Shown in pieces: positions 2,240 to 46,169 of a stretch of 64,000 nt of DNA. The position numbers and the translations under genes are program-made. Source of the DNA: a virus; IMG/VR virus record IMGVR_UViG_3300021407_000012, positions 1-64,000 of that record. The stretch is one strand, 5' to 3'. How positions within the stretch are numbered: the first letter of the stretch is position 1; each line of letters starts with the position of its first letter. Below the pieces are notes generated by a model. The model did no database searches and was not told the DNA's origin. It saw nothing but the letters and a program-made list of their open reading frames with translations.

Positions 2240-4273
2240 ATGCTCGTAAAAACTAAAGAGGCTTTATTAAATGATGTTTCTACCGGAACCGTGCCGCAGG
2301 CTTTTATCAATTCAGGAAGATATTTTGAAACACTTTTTCAAGAATACGTTTATGTATCCCGGTATTCGAGATTTGTACACGAGTTGGGACGACGAGAATC
2401 GTGGAGTGAGACAGTTACAAGGTATTTTGACTTCTATACCACTCATCTTCGCGAAAGATGTGGATATGAATTATCCGCCGTTCTGAGAAATGAATTGGAA
2501 CAGGCTGTTTTGAACCTTGAGGTTATGCCTTCAATGCGTTGTCTTATGAGTGCAGGACCAGCACTTGTACGTGACGAAATGGCTGGTTTTAATTGTTCCT
2601 ATGCTACTGTTGATAATCCTAAGGTATTTGCCGACATTCTATATATTTTGATGGTTGGAACTGGTGTCGGTTTTTCGGTTGAGCGTCAATATGTAAATAA
2701 GTTACCGGAAGTTCCCGAAGAGTTGTATCCAACTGATACAACCATTGTAATTGCTGATTCCAAGATCGGATGGGCAAAGGGATTAAATGAGTTAATTTCT
2801 ATTCTGTATACCGGTTGTATCCCCAAGGTGGATTATTCCAGGGTGCGCCCGGCTGGCTCGGTATTAAAGACCTTCGGAGGGCGCGCTTCTGGTCCTGAGC
2901 CTCTTAAGCGTTGTTTTGATTATATCGTTTCGACGTTTAAAGAGGCAAAGGGTCGTAAGCTTACGTCTCTTGAATGTCATGATATGGTTTGTATGATAGG
3001 AGAATGTGTTGTATCTGGTGGTGTTAGGCGTTCTGCTACTATTTCTTTGTCTAATTTGTCTGATGATCGTATGCGTACAGCTAAGTCGGGTCAATGGTGG
3101 AATACAACGCCTTGGCGATCACTTGCAAACAATTCGGCAGTATATAATGATCGAAGACCCTCCATGGACGTGTTCATGTCGGAATGGTTTTCCCTGCATG
3201 CCTCCAAGTCAGGAGAAAGAGGCATCTTCTCAAGGTTCGCAGCTAAAAATGTCATCGAACGATCAAACGCTTTTAGAAAAGAATTCTGTGGTGATATCGA
3301 AGGTATCCGATATCGAGATGTTGACTTCGAATGGGGGTGCAATCCGTGTTCGGAAATAATTCTTAGACCAAACGAAGTCTGTAATCTAACAGAAATCGTT
3401 GTACGTGAAAATGATACTTTAGAGACGTTGCTTCGTAAGGCTCGAATTGCATCGATCCTTGGGACGTTTCAGGCAACTCTAACTCATTATCGTTTTCTTT
3501 CCAAGAAATGGCAACATAATGCTGAAGAGGAAAGATTGCTTGGTGTATCTTTGACAGGTATTATGGATAATCCAGTATTGGCGGGTGAAAATGTCGATAA
3601 ACTTAAGGATTGGCTTACTCAGATGCGAAGGGAAGTTATTAAAACTAATGTTGAGATCGCTAGCGACCTTAATATACCTTCTAGTACTGCAAGTACATGT
3701 ATCAAACCTAGCGGAACCGTGTCTTCGCTTGTCGATTCTGCTGCTGGAATACACGGTCGTCATTCCCCTTATTATCTTAGGACAATTAGGTCTGATAAGA
3801 AAGACCCATGTGCACAAGTCATGATCGATGCTGGTGTTCCTTATGAGGATGATATTATGCGTCCTGATCATAATATGGTATTCACCTTCCCTATGAAGAG
3901 CCCCCTAAGTTCTAAGAAGAGAGAGAATGCAACAGCTATTGATCAATTGAACTTCTGGCTTCTATATCAGATGTATTGGTGTGATCATAAGCCTTCTGTT
4001 ACTATTTCAGTAAGGGATGATGAATGGATGGATGTAGGAGCATGGGTATACGCTCACTTTGAATATATGTCAGGTGTTTCGTTCCTTCCTTATGCTGATC
4101 ATGTTTATTCCCAGGCTCCTTATCAAGAGATAACGGAGAAGGAATATCATGAGTGGCAAGCAAAGATGCCTCAAAATATTGACTGGTCCACTCTGACTAA
4201 ATATGAGAGTAACGATTTAACAATTGGGTCACAAAACTTCGCTTGTGTTTCAAAAGAAGGATGTGACCTTTAA
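2240..4273 (+). CDS. nrdJ: Adenosylcobalamin-dependent ribonucleoside-triphosphate reductase (class II)
   Basis: Makes dNTPs from NTPs using an adenosylcobalamin-derived thiyl radical. The ATG at 2240 has AAGGAAG upstream. Family motifs in order: FNCSYATVDNP (first redox Cys), RPAGSVLKTFGGRASGPEPL, SGGVRRSATI, the active-site NPCSEIILRPNEVCNLTE with the radical Cys, Asn, Glu and second redox Cys, then KPSGTVSSLVDSAAGIHGRH, and a C-terminal Cys-x5-Cys tail for re-reduction. At 677 residues it is shorter than the approximately 740-residue monomeric enzyme of lactobacilli. Class II enzymes work with or without oxygen. It depends on host B12, since no cobalamin genes are visible. Confidence 0.93.
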   Translation: MLVKTKEALLNDVSTGTVPQAFINSGRYFETLFQEYVYVSRYSRFVHELGRRESWSETVTRYFDFYTTHLRERCGYELSAVLRNELEQAVLNLEVMPSMRCLMSAGPALVRDEMAGFNCSYATVDNPKVFADILYILMVGTGVGFSVERQYVNKLPEVPEELYPTDTTIVIADSKIGWAKGLNELISILYTGCIPKVDYSRVRPAGSVLKTFGGRASGPEPLKRCFDYIVSTFKEAKGRKLTSLECHDMVCMIGECVVSGGVRRSATISLSNLSDDRMRTAKSGQWWNTTPWRSLANNSAVYNDRRPSMDVFMSEWFSLHASKSGERGIFSRFAAKNVIERSNAFRKEFCGDIEGIRYRDVDFEWGCNPCSEIILRPNEVCNLTEIVVRENDTLETLLRKARIASILGTFQATLTHYRFLSKKWQHNAEEERLLGVSLTGIMDNPVLAGENVDKLKDWLTQMRREVIKTNVEIASDLNIPSSTASTCIKPSGTVSSLVDSAAGIHGRHSPYYLRTIRSDKKDPCAQVMIDAGVPYEDDIMRPDHNMVFTFPMKSPLSSKKRENATAIDQLNFWLLYQMYWCDHKPSVTISVRDDEWMDVGAWVYAHFEYMSGVSFLPYADHVYSQAPYQEITEKEYHEWQAKMPQNIDWSTLTKYESNDLTIGSQNFACVSKEGCDL

Positions 4274-4289
4274 TTATAGGGGTCACATT

Positions 4290-4952
4290 ATGTCTAAAAT
4301 AGCTTGGCCACACGATGATAATGAAACGTTGATCAAGTTTTATGGAACGCCAGGAATGGTCAAACTAAGAGACTTTGTTCCTCCGTTCCAAATGATCGAT
4401 GCTGACACCAAAAAGCCAGTAAAATCGTTTGAAGTGCACCCCAAGTGTTTTAATGCTTTTGCCCAAGTGTTCCAAGAAATATGGGATAAGTGTAATCATG
4501 ATCAGTCAGTTATTGAAAAGTATCATCTTCATCTTTTTGGTGGTTCTTACAATAAACGTCTTGTTCGTGGTTCCACCTCTCATTGGTCTGTTCATGCTTT
4601 TGGTGCTGCCATCGATATTAATCCTGCTGGTGCTCCCATGGCAGTCGATGAGCGACCTACGCAAGAAAATATGCCTGACTTTGCGGTTGAAGCCTTCAAA
4701 CGAGCGGGAGCAACCTGGGGTGGAGACTTTCAACATCGCAAGGACTGGATGCACTTCCAATTCGTCTATGAAGGGAAACAGACGTTCTTTGAACCTGTAG
4801 TAATGCCTGTAAGTAATGTTGTAATTCAATCGAATACTTCAGTATTTTCTAATACTACCAAACATCCTGTAGTTATTAATACTACTCCTATTCCTATAGA
4901 ATCCCCTAGTATCTTTGACAACCTTCTCGATAAACTTAAGCACATATTGTGA
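4290..4952 (+). CDS. M15-family zinc peptidase (putative endolysin or D,D-carboxypeptidase type)
   Basis: The M15 (VanY / T5-endolysin type) zinc fold is indicated by SVHAFGAAIDIN (His and Asp ligands, SxHxxGxAxD) and KDWMHFQF (third ligand His). Members cut peptidoglycan peptide bridges, so lysis or wall entry is likely. GGGG before the ATG at 4290 fixes the start. After the catalytic domain (residues about 30-165) comes a 55-residue Asn/Thr/Val/Pro-rich tail resembling tails on several other proteins here. It lies just upstream of a barrel-fold protein. Confidence 0.85.
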   Translation: MSKIAWPHDDNETLIKFYGTPGMVKLRDFVPPFQMIDADTKKPVKSFEVHPKCFNAFAQVFQEIWDKCNHDQSVIEKYHLHLFGGSYNKRLVRGSTSHWSVHAFGAAIDINPAGAPMAVDERPTQENMPDFAVEAFKRAGATWGGDFQHRKDWMHFQFVYEGKQTFFEPVVMPVSNVVIQSNTSVFSNTTKHPVVINTTPIPIESPSIFDNLLDKLKHIL

Positions 4953-12516: not shown

Positions 12517-13756
12517 ACTGAGAACAGAGTTGAGAGAAATCGAAACACAACATAGGAGGCAATCATGTGACCGCAAGGTCATAAACAGCCAACAACTTTA
12601 ATTGTTTTTGTGTGTAAAAGTGTGTAGAGAGTTTAAAGGTTAGGGAGAAATCACGGTTCGAGTCCGTGCGTTGTGGGGAAACCTGCTTTGTCGTCTAATG
12701 GTTAGGACGCTCCCGTTTCTATTCGTCTTTGGACGGATTAGGGCAAGCCCCCCTGAATGTGTGGGTATTAATATCAGAAAGTGTGTTATCACAAGGTAGT
12801 GTACACTACCTACCTACCGGGAGATAGGTACGCAAGCCTATCTCCCATTTAAAATTATCAGATGTATTACAGATTGGGGGCATAGCCTCGTCAGGATAAG
12901 CCAGGGTGACTTGGTAAAAGCGGTAAGTCTTCCTACAGACCCGCACTATTAGCAATAATAGCCCATCTATGCAGGTCCGGTCTTCCCCGTGAGGGGCAAT
13001 CGATGGCATCGGTTGTAAAGCAGGACGGTTAGGTAAGGTCGAAAGATAGGTTCGAGGGTAACACTGTAGAGCCAAGTCCCGAAAGGACACCTTACGTTCA
13101 AACTAACTTACTGTGTATAGATAACGGATAGTGGGATACAGAGCATGAGACTTGCAATCTAATGCGACCCGCAAAATGGAGGATAATGGCTGACGTTAAC
13201 ACAGTCGGACAGCATCCAAGAATTTGGTTTAGTAGCTCGCAAGGCGAAGGACAGTTGCCGTGTTGTATTTGGTACCTCAAAAGGGTATTGAGCAACAGTC
13301 GCAGCACGTCAAGTAGGTTTCCGATAATTGAAACTAGGTGTTTCAATCTCACTGTGAATGAGATGTCGGTTGGTTCAAATCCAACTTATCATGCAGAAAA
13401 AGCAAAGTCTGCGACTGTGTTGAATGAAAGTGGTTTAATCCTATGAGTCCTTTGGACTAACATAGGGGATTTGTTACTCGCAAGGTGACAGTCTTTGATA
13501 GCGTGATTTGTCATAGAGGGTTAGCCCCCTCGAATAGCTCGCAAGGCTAGTGGTGAAAAGCATGTCGAATAGTTCAACATGAAAGAGGTACCGCCCCCTC
13601 TATAATCAAGGCAACCATGTGACGATACTGGATAGTTGTCCAGTGGAAATCGGGGAACCTTTCTTAAATGTGCGCTCCGTCGCCGCATCCCTCGCAGGAT
13701 GGAGGATAATCCCGTAAGTTGTCATGTAGAACCCGTATTCTCAGGGTTTTATCTTT
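12517..13756 (+). ncRNA. Large non-coding, highly structured region
   Basis: About 1.24 kb without a convincing ORF, downstream of a good promoter. Visible structure: GACC-GCAA-GGTC hairpin at 12569-12580; tRNA-like halves in permuted order (T arm CACGG/CCGTG at 12652-12668, D-arm-like GTCTAATGGTTAGGAC at 12693-12708, GGGAG upstream pairing CTCCC downstream); palindrome at 12795-12810; 10-bp hairpin at 12819-12846; several CTCGCAAGG hairpins (13236, 13488, 13538); a His-like tRNA fragment (loop CTGTGAA, T arm GTTGG-TTCAAAT-CCAAC) at about 13325-13392. Size and tRNA context recall GOLLD or ROOL giant RNAs, but identity is unproven. Confidence 0.5.
12819..12846 (+). terminator. Strong 10-bp hairpin, possible terminator
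   Basis: GGGAGATAGG pairs with CCTATCTCCC around an 8-base loop; it is followed by ATTTAAAATT rather than a pure T run. It could instead be a domain of the large RNA. Confidence 0.45.
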
Positions 13757-22337: not shown

Positions 22338-22363
22338 TACGTATACTACCTCTGCGTATTAAA

Positions 22364-22724
22364 GTTATAGACGGACTATCGCTGTACACCTATATGGGCT
22401 ACCTTCGGGTACTGTACAGAGGAAAGTCGGGGCTGCACACGAAACCGTACAAGGTAACACCTTGGTATTCATAACTGCCACGCTTTTATGAATGACGATT
22501 AGAGCAACAGAAAATATGTATGCTTTATATACATGCCTAGATAGAGTGGGATAAACTTGTATATAAAGGCGTAGTGAAATTGGCAATCTCTACGGGCAGC
22601 AATCCCTAATAGGTCACTAGCCTTCGTGGGCGTTACGGTGACGGGTCGGGAGCTAGAGGGTAATCGCGAGGTTACTCCCAGATAAATGATAGTACTTGAC
22701 AGAACCCCGCTTATAGTCTATAAT
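22364..22724 (+). ncRNA. rnpB: RNase P RNA (type A)
   Basis: Catalytic RNA that trims tRNA 5' ends. Conserved regions occur in order and spacing: GAGGAAAGTC at 22419, GGTAAC with its flanking stem at 22453, AGAGCAACAGAAA at 22501, AGATAAATGA at 22680 and ACAGAACCCCGCTTATAG at 22699. The 5' GTTATAGAC pairs with 3' GTCTATAAT to form helix P1. About 361 bases, close to the E. coli length of 377. It lies in the middle of the tRNA island it would serve. Confidence 0.95.
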
Positions 22725-22766
22725 GCTACTACCTTAGAATGACCATGATATTGAACGTAACAATTT

Positions 22767-25416: not shown

Positions 25417-25487
25417 TGGGGTGACCAGAAGTTGGAACGGTGCCTTTGAAGCATCGGAGTAGGGGGCAGTACCTTACACCCCATCCA
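25417..25487 (+). tRNA. tRNA-Gln(TTG), non-canonical T loop
   Basis: Acceptor TGGGGTG/CACCCCA, anticodon arm GGTGC-CTTTGAA-GCATC, discriminator T, CCA encoded. T arm TAGGG-GGCAGTA-CCTTA: the loop GGCAGTA replaces TTCRANN and is the same as in the phage tmRNA. Confidence 0.8.
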
Positions 25488-32061: not shown

Positions 32062-32282
32062 TGGCACCTAGACCATGGGAACCTGTTGGAAGATATTACC
32101 TACTTGAATGGTGGGAAGATAATGTTACAGATTTAATGGGTGCGTTAGCACAATTATATAGTGTGGATATCTATGGTACTAATGCTCGTTTAATACGTTT
32201 TGCTACTCAAAGATGGAATTTCATGCAATCAATAAAAGAACGAATCTCACGTTTACAAGATCAAATATATCGAAGAGGATAA
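32058..32282 (+). CDS. Aromatic-rich small protein, 74 aa
   Basis: ATGATGG start overlapping the gmhB stop. WEPVGRYYLLEWWEDN start and a long basic C-terminal helix (FMQSIKERISRLQDQIYRR). Function unknown. Confidence 0.55.
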   Translation: MMAPRPWEPVGRYYLLEWWEDNVTDLMGALAQLYSVDIYGTNARLIRFATQRWNFMQSIKERISRLQDQIYRRG

Positions 32283-32284
32283 AA

Positions 32285-33025
32285 ATGAAAAACATTCGTT
32301 TGTTCGCCGATACAGCGTCGATGACTGATATTAAGGAAATGGTAGCTAATGACTTGGTGGAAGGATATACTACTAATCCTACGCTCATGCGTCGAGCGGG
32401 AATTAAGGATTATAAGGGATTTGTCACCGAAGTCTTGGATTACCTAGCGGAACATCATCCCGATGGATGTATCTCTTTTGAGGTATTTTCGTCGGATGAA
32501 ATGGAGATGGTTTATGAGGCTCGGGAGTTGAAAAAACTCAACTATCATAACTATAATATGTATGTCAAGGTGCCTTATCTCAATATCGATGGACGCCCTA
32601 ATGAGCAAGTTATTCGTAATCTGCTCAAAGAGGATATTTCAGTCAACGTAACAGCAGTTTTTAATCAGATACAGGCTATCCATTCTATTCAGATGTTAGC
32701 CGACGATAATAATGATCATATTATATCGATCTTTGCTGGTAGAATTAATGATACTGGATATCCGGCTGAAAAAATTGTAGCCTATATTATAGCTATTCCA
32801 ACTCAGAATGTAGAAATCCTTTGGGCATCCCCTCGTCAGGTTTTTGATTATGTTTTGGCAGATAGTGTAGGGTGTCATATTATCACCATGACCCCCGATT
32901 TAATAAGGAAGATACCGGGAATTGGTACGCCTCTGAAACTGGCAGCATTGAATACATCGCGTCAGTTTTATGATGACGCAAAAGCTTGTGGTTATAAACT
33001 TTGGGAGAATGAAGATGGGGTTTGA
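32285..33025 (+). CDS. Transaldolase (TalC/small type)
   Basis: 246 residues. LFADTASMTDI at the start, TTNPTLMRRAG, the Schiff-base Lys strand MYVKVPYL, VNVTAVFN and IFAGRINDTG are the ordered motifs of the small transaldolase family. AGAGGA precedes the ATG. Transaldolase interconverts sedoheptulose-7-phosphate with other sugar phosphates, so it sets the level of the GmhA substrate. Some phages use transaldolase to feed the pentose-phosphate pathway instead. Confidence 0.88.
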   Translation: MKNIRLFADTASMTDIKEMVANDLVEGYTTNPTLMRRAGIKDYKGFVTEVLDYLAEHHPDGCISFEVFSSDEMEMVYEARELKKLNYHNYNMYVKVPYLNIDGRPNEQVIRNLLKEDISVNVTAVFNQIQAIHSIQMLADDNNDHIISIFAGRINDTGYPAEKIVAYIIAIPTQNVEILWASPRQVFDYVLADSVGCHIITMTPDLIRKIPGIGTPLKLAALNTSRQFYDDAKACGYKLWENEDGV

Positions 33026-34025
33026 TGAAAATGAGATCAGTGCCAAGGCATATGGTGGAACTGAGATAGCGAAGAGACTGCTGGCAAATACTCTTGATAA
33101 AGAATTGCTATCTCATTTCCAAATTATTCCATCGCGCATTCGGGAATTGAAAGAGGATAAGATTCGTATCCTGTTTCTAAATGACCTTGCGGGCGATCCT
33201 GAAGTTGCTCAGTTGAAGGACCATAACTATCGAAACAAGTTTCATAAATTTGTGTTTATTTCAAATTGGCAATATCAACAGTTTCAGACAATTCTGAATT
33301 TACCATATGATCACAAGTCTATTGTGATTGAAAGTGGTATTGCTCCTTCTAGTGCTAAGTTCGAAAATAAACCAACCGATAAGATTAATCTGGTTTATAC
33401 TTCTACCCCTCAACGAGGGTTGAATATCCTGGCGGCTGTGTTCAATGAATTGTGTAAGAGGTATGATAACCTACATCTAGACGTGTTTTCGTCATTCAAG
33501 ATTTATGGATGGGAAGAACAGGATAAGGCATTTGAGCCTTTATACCAGCAAATCCGTGATAATCCTAATGCGACTTATCATGGCTTTGTCCCCCATGATG
33601 AACTTTTGAAGCATGTTGCAGAACAGTCGCATATCTTTGCTTATCCGAGTGTTTGGCAGGAAACTTCTTGTCGGGCTATGTTAGAAGCCATGGCTTCGCA
33701 GTGTGTTTGTGTACATCCAAATTTCGCTGGTTTGCCTGATACGTCGGGAAGTTTGAACCTTATGTATGCAGGTGATCAAGATATGCAAGTTCATGCTAAC
33801 TTGTTTATGAGCAGCGTTGAACAGGCTATCAAGATGATCAATGATCGAGAAAATGTTGACAAGCTTCAACAGCGTTTGCAATATGTTCAAAACTATATCA
33901 ATGGACGTTTTAATATAGCCAACGTATCTCGGACCTGGGATAATCTTTTGAGAGGATTGCTTCAGACTATGCCTGATCCAAATTCTCGACGCTTCCCCGG
34001 TGATATGTTTTCGTATAAATTCTGA
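33015..34025 (+). CDS. Family-4-like glycosyltransferase
   Basis: 336 residues. GGTEIAKRLL near the N-terminus, then a GT-B C-terminal domain with LVYTSTPQRGLNIL, YHGFVPHDEL, FAYPSVWQETSCRAMLEAMA (the E-x7-E donor motif). ATG at 33015 has GGGAGA at seven bases. It would transfer the activated sugar made by the neighbouring genes, perhaps to LPS, a virion protein or phage DNA. Acceptor unknown. Confidence 0.88.
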   Translation: MGFDENEISAKAYGGTEIAKRLLANTLDKELLSHFQIIPSRIRELKEDKIRILFLNDLAGDPEVAQLKDHNYRNKFHKFVFISNWQYQQFQTILNLPYDHKSIVIESGIAPSSAKFENKPTDKINLVYTSTPQRGLNILAAVFNELCKRYDNLHLDVFSSFKIYGWEEQDKAFEPLYQQIRDNPNATYHGFVPHDELLKHVAEQSHIFAYPSVWQETSCRAMLEAMASQCVCVHPNFAGLPDTSGSLNLMYAGDQDMQVHANLFMSSVEQAIKMINDRENVDKLQQRLQYVQNYINGRFNIANVSRTWDNLLRGLLQTMPDPNSRRFPGDMFSYKF

Positions 34026-45020: not shown

Positions 45021-45308
45021 ATGATACTTCCTGAATCTTTAGTAGGTTATATTGCATCGGTCTATATTTGTCTAGCATCAGCGACCGTTTGTGATAATTC
45101 AAATGCTCTTTGGACAAATTGGGCTTATATGCGCCCTGATAATGGTATGGTCGAACTTTCGTCCCCTGAGAAATTGAAGCAGATTTGTATCGATACAATG
45201 AAAAAAAATATTCCGAAGATCAATGCTCCTTATTTTACCATGGACGGGTCGAAAGAGGGCGAGCGATTAAAAATTCGGATTGAATGCGAAAAAGGTGTTG
45301 ACATCTGA
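45021..45308 (+). CDS. Possible exported protein, 95 aa
   Basis: N-terminal hydrophobic stretch LVGYIASVYICLASATVC, then soluble part with two further Cys. The last codons contain the -35 box of the tmRNA promoter. Unknown. Confidence 0.6.
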   Translation: MILPESLVGYIASVYICLASATVCDNSNALWTNWAYMRPDNGMVELSSPEKLKQICIDTMKKNIPKINAPYFTMDGSKEGERLKIRIECEKGVDI

Positions 45309-45326
45309 CCCAAGATGCAGTATAAA
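45298..45326 (+). promoter_or_regulatory. sigma70-type promoter of the tmRNA
   Basis: TTGACA, 17-base spacer, TATAAA (reads TATAAATA, also a late-type box); predicted start near 45333. Confidence 0.8.
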
Positions 45327-45332
45327 TAAGAC

Positions 45333-45624
45333 ACTGGACGATTAGTTGATGGTTCAACTAAACACGAAACACTCGGGGGCAGTACCCGATACCTCCACCA
45401 AAAGCACATACCCTACCCAAAGGGTTGTTGACAGGGTTGGAAGGATCAACGCACAGGATGTGCTTTTGATGGGGGTAAAATAGGTTCGACTTCGTGTGGA
45501 ATGGAATCGGATAGTCGGTCGGTATATAACTGTCGCATCAAACGACAACTTTGCTCGGGAACTCGCCCTCGCGGCGTAATTCCCTACGGAGTTCGGTAGC
45601 TTCCTTGGCAACAGAAAAGCTACC
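45333..45624 (+). ncRNA. ssrA: Circularly permuted (two-piece) tmRNA
   Basis: Rescues stalled ribosomes. The acceptor piece comes first: T arm TCGGG-GGCAGTA-CCCGA and 3' end TACCTCC-A-CCA at 45400. A spacer closed by AAAGCACAT/ATGTGCTTT (45401-45409 with 45459-45467) follows; then the coding piece starts GGGGGTA (45471), pairing with TACCTCC, then AGGTTCGAC. The tag frame begins at GCA 45535 and reads ASNDNFARELALAA to TAA 45577-45579, like alphaproteobacterial tags. A final GGTAGCTT/AAGCTACC hairpin (45595-45624) may terminate it. Confidence 0.93.
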
Positions 45625-45662
45625 ATTTCACCATGTGTTTAACGAAAATAGGAGTGTATACA

Positions 45663-46169
45663 ATGAGTTTGAATTCGAATGTTCGTAAGTTTGACCCTGT
45701 AAAGGGTATGGCGTTTCAGGGCGACCTCGCCATCGTTCCGGTTCCGGCTTCCGTGAAGCTTAACACCGCCAACGAAATCCAGCCCAAGAACGGCTACCTT
45801 GTTCTTCTTGAGGGTGAGTTGACTGGTCATCACCATGCAATTCCGGTCCTTGAGCGTCCGACCACTCAGGTTGAGCCGAAGACCACCCCGAAGAAGACCA
45901 GCAAGACTGTTGAAAACCTTTTCGACCTTGCTACTCAGGCTCCGTCCACCGCCAAGATGTATCGTGATGCAAACGTCGCATCAGAGATGCAGCGCCTCGG
46001 CATCCTTACCCGTACCGACCTGATTGTCGGTGTGCTTGAGGTTTCCGAAGGTAACGGTGTTATCCTTCGCCATCACGAGCATGATGGTATCCACCTTCCG
46101 AAGGGCACTTACTACATCGGTCGTCAGGTCGAAAGTGCTTTCAATGAAGAGCGCCGGGTCGCCGACTAA
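45663..46169 (+). CDS. Hypothetical protein, 168 aa, GC-rich cassette gene 1
   Basis: AGGAG before the ATG. FQGDLAIVPVPASVKLNTANEI and LVLLEGELTGHHHAIPV, then a Lys/Thr/Pro linker and a C-terminal HEHDGIHLPKGTYYIGRQ segment that mirrors the first (metal-binding-like His clusters). Codon use is clearly more GC-rich than in flanking genes. In my memory such a protein often precedes DUF6745 genes. Function unknown. Confidence 0.68.
   Translation: MSLNSNVRKFDPVKGMAFQGDLAIVPVPASVKLNTANEIQPKNGYLVLLEGELTGHHHAIPVLERPTTQVEPKTTPKKTSKTVENLFDLATQAPSTAKMYRDANVASEMQRLGILTRTDLIVGVLEVSEGNGVILRHHEHDGIHLPKGTYYIGRQVESAFNEERRVAD

Follow-up and report, generated by a model that had tools for sequence, protein, structure and literature searches.

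A phage gene for a two-piece, alphaproteobacterial-type tmRNA upstream of gp32 in a T4-like myovirus

Is a circularly permuted tmRNA gene found within a virus contig an ordinary host ssrA gene carried by the virus, or a gene of the phage itself, and could its product function in ribosome rescue? This question is raised by a locus in the virus record IMGVR_UViG_3300021407_000012, an 81.8-kb linear contig of which we analyzed positions 1 to 64,000 (64,000 nucleotides; hereafter, the window). An earlier note had described the locus as a phage-encoded tmRNA of the permuted, alphaproteobacterial form that appeared to be host-derived. We assign a probability of about 0.84 to the reading that this is a phage gene for a working two-piece tmRNA of the alphaproteobacterial type, which would be processed, charged and used for tagging on stalled ribosomes.

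Anatomy of the tmRNA gene

A complete, circularly permuted tmRNA gene of the alphaproteobacterial type occupies positions 45298-45627 (+) of the window. The Rfam alpha_tmRNA model RF01849 matches positions 45294-45627 with 92.2 bits (E 9.3e-24, cut-off 50), the tmRNA_permuted model RF04321 matches this gene with 68.6 bits (cut-off 47), and ARAGORN reports a tmRNA of the permuted type (tmRNA*), with the tag VASNDNFARELALAA, at 45308-45670 (+). The fold of the tmRNA strand has a z-score of -4.22, and none of the 100 shuffles was equally stable. The gene consists of the following elements.

45298-45327 (+), promoter, TTGACA, 17-base spacer and TATAAA(T), found by pattern search
45333-45400 (+), acceptor piece ending in encoded CCA, from the RF01849 and RF04321 alignments and ARAGORN, with the 5' end deduced from the promoter
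45362-45368 (+), P2 helix, acceptor-piece strand ACACGAA, 7 bp with 45491-45497
45373-45389 (+), T arm TCGGG-GGCAGTA-CCCGA, all 5 stem pairs formed, loop of the Rfam alpha consensus type
45390-45396 (+), acceptor stem, 3' strand TACCTCC, 7 of 7 pairs with 45471-45477 including G3:U70, covarying in phage relatives
45397-45400 (+), discriminator A73 and encoded CCA
45401-45470 (+), intervening spacer of 70 nt, expected to be excised
45401-45409 and 45458-45466 (+), spacer closing helix AAAGCACAT/ATGTGCTTT, 9 bp
between the spacer helix and the acceptor 5' strand (+), UGAU, found in 26 of 27 phage genes
45471-45627 (+), coding (mRNA-like) piece, from ARAGORN and Rfam, with the 3' end set by the Rfam match
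45471-45477 (+), acceptor stem, 5' strand GGGGGTA, from pairing and covariation
45491-45497 (+), P2 helix, coding-piece strand TTCGTGT, 7 bp with 45362-45368
45535-45579 (+), tag frame ASNDNFARELALAA followed by TAA (stop at 45577-45579); ARAGORN starts one codon earlier, at GTC 45532
45595-45625 (+), 3' hairpin GGTAGCTT/AAGCTACC around TGGCAACAGAA, which matches the alphaproteobacterial consensus UGGCAACAGAA

The architecture proposed in the earlier note is thus borne out by both Rfam models and ARAGORN: the acceptor piece with its encoded CCA (ending at 45400) precedes the coding piece (from 45471), GGGGGTA at 45471 pairs with TACCTCC along the full stem, the 9-bp helix closes the spacer, and the tag frame follows the acceptor 5' strand. 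The note would have had the claim dropped if there were no match to a permuted model and no covariation of the acceptor stem; the matches and the covariation (see below) are both present, and the claim stands. The P2 helix joins the two tmRNA pieces, although some of the neighboring helices of the alpha model are not formed as in RF01849 (mismatch marks in the alignment), and both elements of alanine identity, G3:U70 and A73, are present. With the Caulobacter-type two-piece tmRNA of Alphaproteobacteria (RF01849), the window gene shares the permuted order, the encoded CCA, G3:U70, the GGCRGUA T loop, the 3' UGGCAACAGAA motif and a tag that contains NDN (here, NDNFA) and ends in LAA.

The T loop GGCAGUA, which had been considered unusual, is the alphaproteobacterial norm (Rfam alpha consensus GGGGGCgGUACCCG). 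The second part of that observation, that the loop is shared with a phage tRNA, holds: the tmRNA gene has the 12-mer GGGGGCAGTACC in common with a tRNA-like element of the window, and this sharing is real and odd.

25417-25487 (+), tRNA-Gln(TTG)-like gene with T loop GGCAGTA, from the cloverleaf fold and anticodon TTG

This element was not called by ARAGORN or Rfam, and the trait is not shared by a 181-kb relative (contig G002), in which ARAGORN calls a tRNA-Gln(ttg) with the usual T loop TTCGATT at the same place. Because the acceptor pattern itself fixes some of the T-loop bases, sets of loci picked with it were left out of the T-loop statistics.

The suggestion that the gene has its own promoter was also upheld. 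The site at 45298-45327 is the only one in the window that matches TTGACA-N17-TATAAWT without a mismatch, and -35/-10 elements with 11-12 of 12 matches, 41-49 bases before the T arm, recur in many phage tmRNA genes, whereas the promoters of chromosomal ssrA genes mostly have 7-9 of 12 matches (maximum, 10). The consensus promoter of the window gene is also closer to the T arm than in chromosomal alphaproteobacterial genes. A sigma-70 scan of the window did not list this promoter, because the scan demands T at the last -10 position. We also considered TATAAATA as a T4-like late promoter; there are only two such sites, fewer than expected by chance, so this reading is not favored.

Conservation among phages

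The source of the contig is a T4-like myovirus, and its host is probably an alphaproteobacterium. The window encodes the T4-like gp32, DNA end protector gp2, gp4, gp48, gp53, tail tube and baseplate hub proteins, and genes for ribonucleotide reductase and thymidylate synthase also lie near the tmRNA gene. A second contig (G001, 113 kb) is identical to the record over 16.9 kb around the tmRNA gene and differs from the start of the window by one mismatch in 17.8 kb. A megablast search of 24 kb against isolated phages gave no match. Among isolated phages, the proteins nearest to gp32 are those of cyanophages and pelagiphages. Transaldolase-like and glycosyltransferase-like genes are located at 32213-33025 and 32970-34025 (+).

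RF01849 matched 36 of the 51 gp32-related or isolate records, 30 of them above the cut-off. The isolates with matches include Mesorhizobium phage Cp1R7A-A1, Pelagibacter phage HTVC008M, Rhodobacter phage RcXuper, Ruegeria phage V10 and Sinorhizobium phage Phosso, and in these five records no tmRNA is annotated under the RF01849 match. Wherever ARAGORN detects a tmRNA in a gp32-relative locus, the tmRNA gene shares the strand of gp32 and is upstream of it, at most about 7 kb away; in a circular reading of the HTVC008M record, its tmRNA (83.8 bits) precedes gp32 by about 7 kb. Two further BLAST hits, Acinetobacter phage BS46 and the uncultured LR756511, were set aside, having no tmRNA match in Rfam. 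In Ruegeria phage V10, a GOLLD RNA is located just before the tmRNA; the window also contains a GOLLD RNA (13253-13747 (+), 174.5 bits), which overlaps a tRNA-His gene within the tRNA array.

Phage one-piece tmRNA genes are often found beside many tRNA genes, and those of mycobacteriophages and Bacillus phage G have the standard gene order, not the permuted one. Like the two-piece tmRNA of the window, these one-piece tmRNAs are phage-encoded (PMC4131195). Two-piece tmRNAs of phages have been published as well, those of Melnitz and its relatives, along with 53 two-piece ARAGORN calls in 18,146 phage genomes (PMC9004378), and a 2025 tmRNA database includes 79 phage sequences of all forms (PMC11915505). 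The window tmRNA therefore adds to a known kind, enlarging a little-noticed class, and the earlier note overrated the novelty of a phage-encoded two-piece tmRNA. As in the window, the tmRNA of the pelagiphages and the Methylophilales phage Melnitz is a permuted, alpha-type molecule encoded by T4-like myoviruses; the Melnitz tmRNA was placed under a glutamine riboswitch (PMC9004378), whereas Rfam detected no riboswitch in the window.

For comparison of sequence and structure, we used 26 phage tmRNAs, namely, gp32 relatives, isolates found by BLAST and the window gene, which were not picked by a tmRNA pattern. Only genes in which all 7 acceptor pairs form were retained by the script, which took the best-pairing 5' strand; this biases the percentage of paired acceptor positions but leaves the variety of pair types unaffected. 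Across the 26 tmRNAs, compensatory changes occur at acceptor pairs 4-7, and G3:U70 is invariant (26 of 26 genes with the full 7-pair stem). The register of the spacer helix is 92% paired, compared to 35-55% when it is slid by 1-3 positions; in chromosomal genes, this helix is less strict, with 72% paired. UGAU directly precedes the acceptor 5' strand in 26 of the 27 phage genes (window, isolates and gp32 relatives) and, as read from the sequence and fold, can pair with the encoded ACCA except for one A.C mismatch, so that the precursor would be one nearly continuous hairpin. The spacer helix and the UGAU motif thus give a testable precursor structure.

The phage tags end in Ala-Ala in 23-24 of 24 cases, with all four alanine codons in use. 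That the two alanines are kept despite the varied codons points to selection on the C-terminus of the tag as a peptide. The tmRNA of the closest distinct relative (contig L011, 4125-4487) differs from that of the window in its T loop, TGCGACT, and in a long tag frame read as VKDNDYVAPLWDFASLREPALVA.

Divergence from chromosomal ssrA

Although the gene is of the alphaproteobacterial type in all its tmRNA features, as would be expected of an ordinary host ssrA gene recently captured and carried by the phage, its sequence is far from those of chromosomal genes. In a sample of 116 Alphaproteobacteria, almost all full-length chromosomal genes score 143-313 bits with RF01849 (277 and 294 bits in two named cases), the exceptions being an extra copy, which scores 72.8 bits, and some matches that are partial or very weak, whereas phage tmRNAs score 41-113 bits and the window gene 92 bits. 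The spacer is 70 nt long in the window, compared to a median of 33 nt in the chromosomal sample. A BLAST search against 289 Alphaproteobacteria yielded short matches in 102 genomes, nearly all around the T arm, and the best identity is 58-62% over alignable columns.

In phylogenetic trees, for which chromosomal loci were sampled by the acceptor pattern among the matches listed, the phage copies form clusters separate from those of the chromosomal copies, with 2-8 label changes versus 41-71 in shuffles, and a single clade of all viral copies was not rejected by the AU test (p 0.199). The window gene forms a long branch, the position of which shifts with the alignment: in one careful tree, it fell within the chromosomal set beside SAR116 genes, but this placement was lost under piece-by-piece alignment. 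Because three trees disagree, we dropped the attempt to name the host from the tmRNA phylogeny, and no host is named.

Taken together, the scores, the short BLAST matches and the clustering in the trees identify the class as alphaproteobacterial and make recent capture from a host unlikely; the conserved position upstream of gp32 across distant phages also speaks against it, and we give such an event little chance. The suggestion of the earlier note that the gene is host-derived is accordingly unsupported as far as recent capture is concerned. The tmRNA gene is of the alphaproteobacterial type and has been with phages for a long time. More broadly, the comparison indicates that phages have kept two-piece tmRNA genes over a long period, at a conserved place before gp32, rather than capturing them in passing, and that the phage copies are a set that diverged from chromosomal ssrA.

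Predicted function and the RNase P RNA of the same phage

Established tmRNA biology suggests how the window gene would work. Transcription from the promoter at 45298 would yield a single precursor, in which RNase P would cut 5' of GGGGGTA and tRNA 3'-end enzymes would expose the encoded CCA, with removal of the 70-nt spacer; the two resulting pieces would be held together by the acceptor stem and P2. Given G3:U70 and A73, the phage tmRNA would be charged by the host alanyl-tRNA synthetase. No SmpB was found in the 81.8-kb record, nor in any of 17 records that were related or carried an RNase P RNA, so the phage tmRNA would rely on host SmpB for delivery to stalled ribosomes. The tag (A)ASNDNFARELALAA would be added and the product sent to host ClpXP. 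The likely gain for the phage is that ribosomes remain available while many mRNAs are being cut in the infected cell.

The presence of a tmRNA in a phage that lacks its own SmpB could also fit a decoy, that is, a tmRNA-like RNA that sequesters SmpB or alanyl-tRNA synthetase and blocks ribosome rescue in the host; such a role has been proposed for the RNA of mycobacteriophage DS6A that consists of the tRNA-like domain only (PMC4131195). However, the window gene keeps a full coding piece, tag frame and stop codon, and the LAA end is conserved at the protein level in relatives; a decoy would not need a tag, which makes this explanation improbable. Still less credible is that the copy has decayed or that phage and host DNA were joined in the contig, for which the low score relative to chromosomal genes might be cited: the second contig is identical around the gene, the acceptor stem is intact, as are the spacer helix and the tag, and relatives keep the tmRNA gene in place.

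A further gene of the window, located inside the phage tRNA array, encodes the RNA of a candidate processing enzyme.

22363-22729 (+), class A RNase P RNA gene, RF00010 167.8 bits (cut-off 100)

Its P4 helix, GUCGGGG/CCCCGC, differs from the usual GUCCGGG/CCCGGC by a compensatory change and retains the bulged U. RNase P RNA is also present in the records of two relatives; in the 181-kb relative, it is located at 3348-3679 (locus L389; 139 bits) and is followed by tRNAs in the same order as in the window, Arg(gcg), Gln(ctg), Cys, Arg(cct), Gly(tcc), Gln(ttg) and Met. HTVC008M differs from the window phage in having no RNase P RNA. An RNase P pattern singled out 14 viral loci with many tRNAs; in 11 of them, an RNase P RNA scores above the cut-off, one of these being the near-identical contig of the window, and the tRNA arrays of about ten other viral contigs (L212, L218, L220, L228, L232, L237, L243, L247, L257 and L259) contain it. 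RNase P RNA matches were few in the records of isolated phages, and for none of them did the annotation name a phage RNase P RNA; the one annotated case among these matches is a Salmonella chromosome record. We found no description of a phage RNase P RNA in the open-access literature.

Because RNase P is expected to make the 5' cut of the tmRNA, the RNase P RNA and tmRNA genes may work together, and phage-run maturation of tRNAs and tmRNA is possible. No RnpA was found in the phage records searched, so host RnpA would be needed. We consider, as a tentative proposal with somewhat worse than even prospects, that the phage carries a self-contained kit in which an RNase P RNA of its own, together with host RnpA, would process about 30 phage tRNAs and split the two-piece pre-tmRNA. 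If so, RNase P RNA genes of phages would be genuine and widespread and would have gone undescribed until now. The presence of the RNase P RNA in the same genome raises the question of whether phages replace a host RNA-processing enzyme as well as tRNAs. Two of the contigs listed above, L237 (tmRNA at 4074-4409) and L257 (7997-8332), each combine a standard one-piece tmRNA with an RNase P RNA and more than 20 tRNAs.
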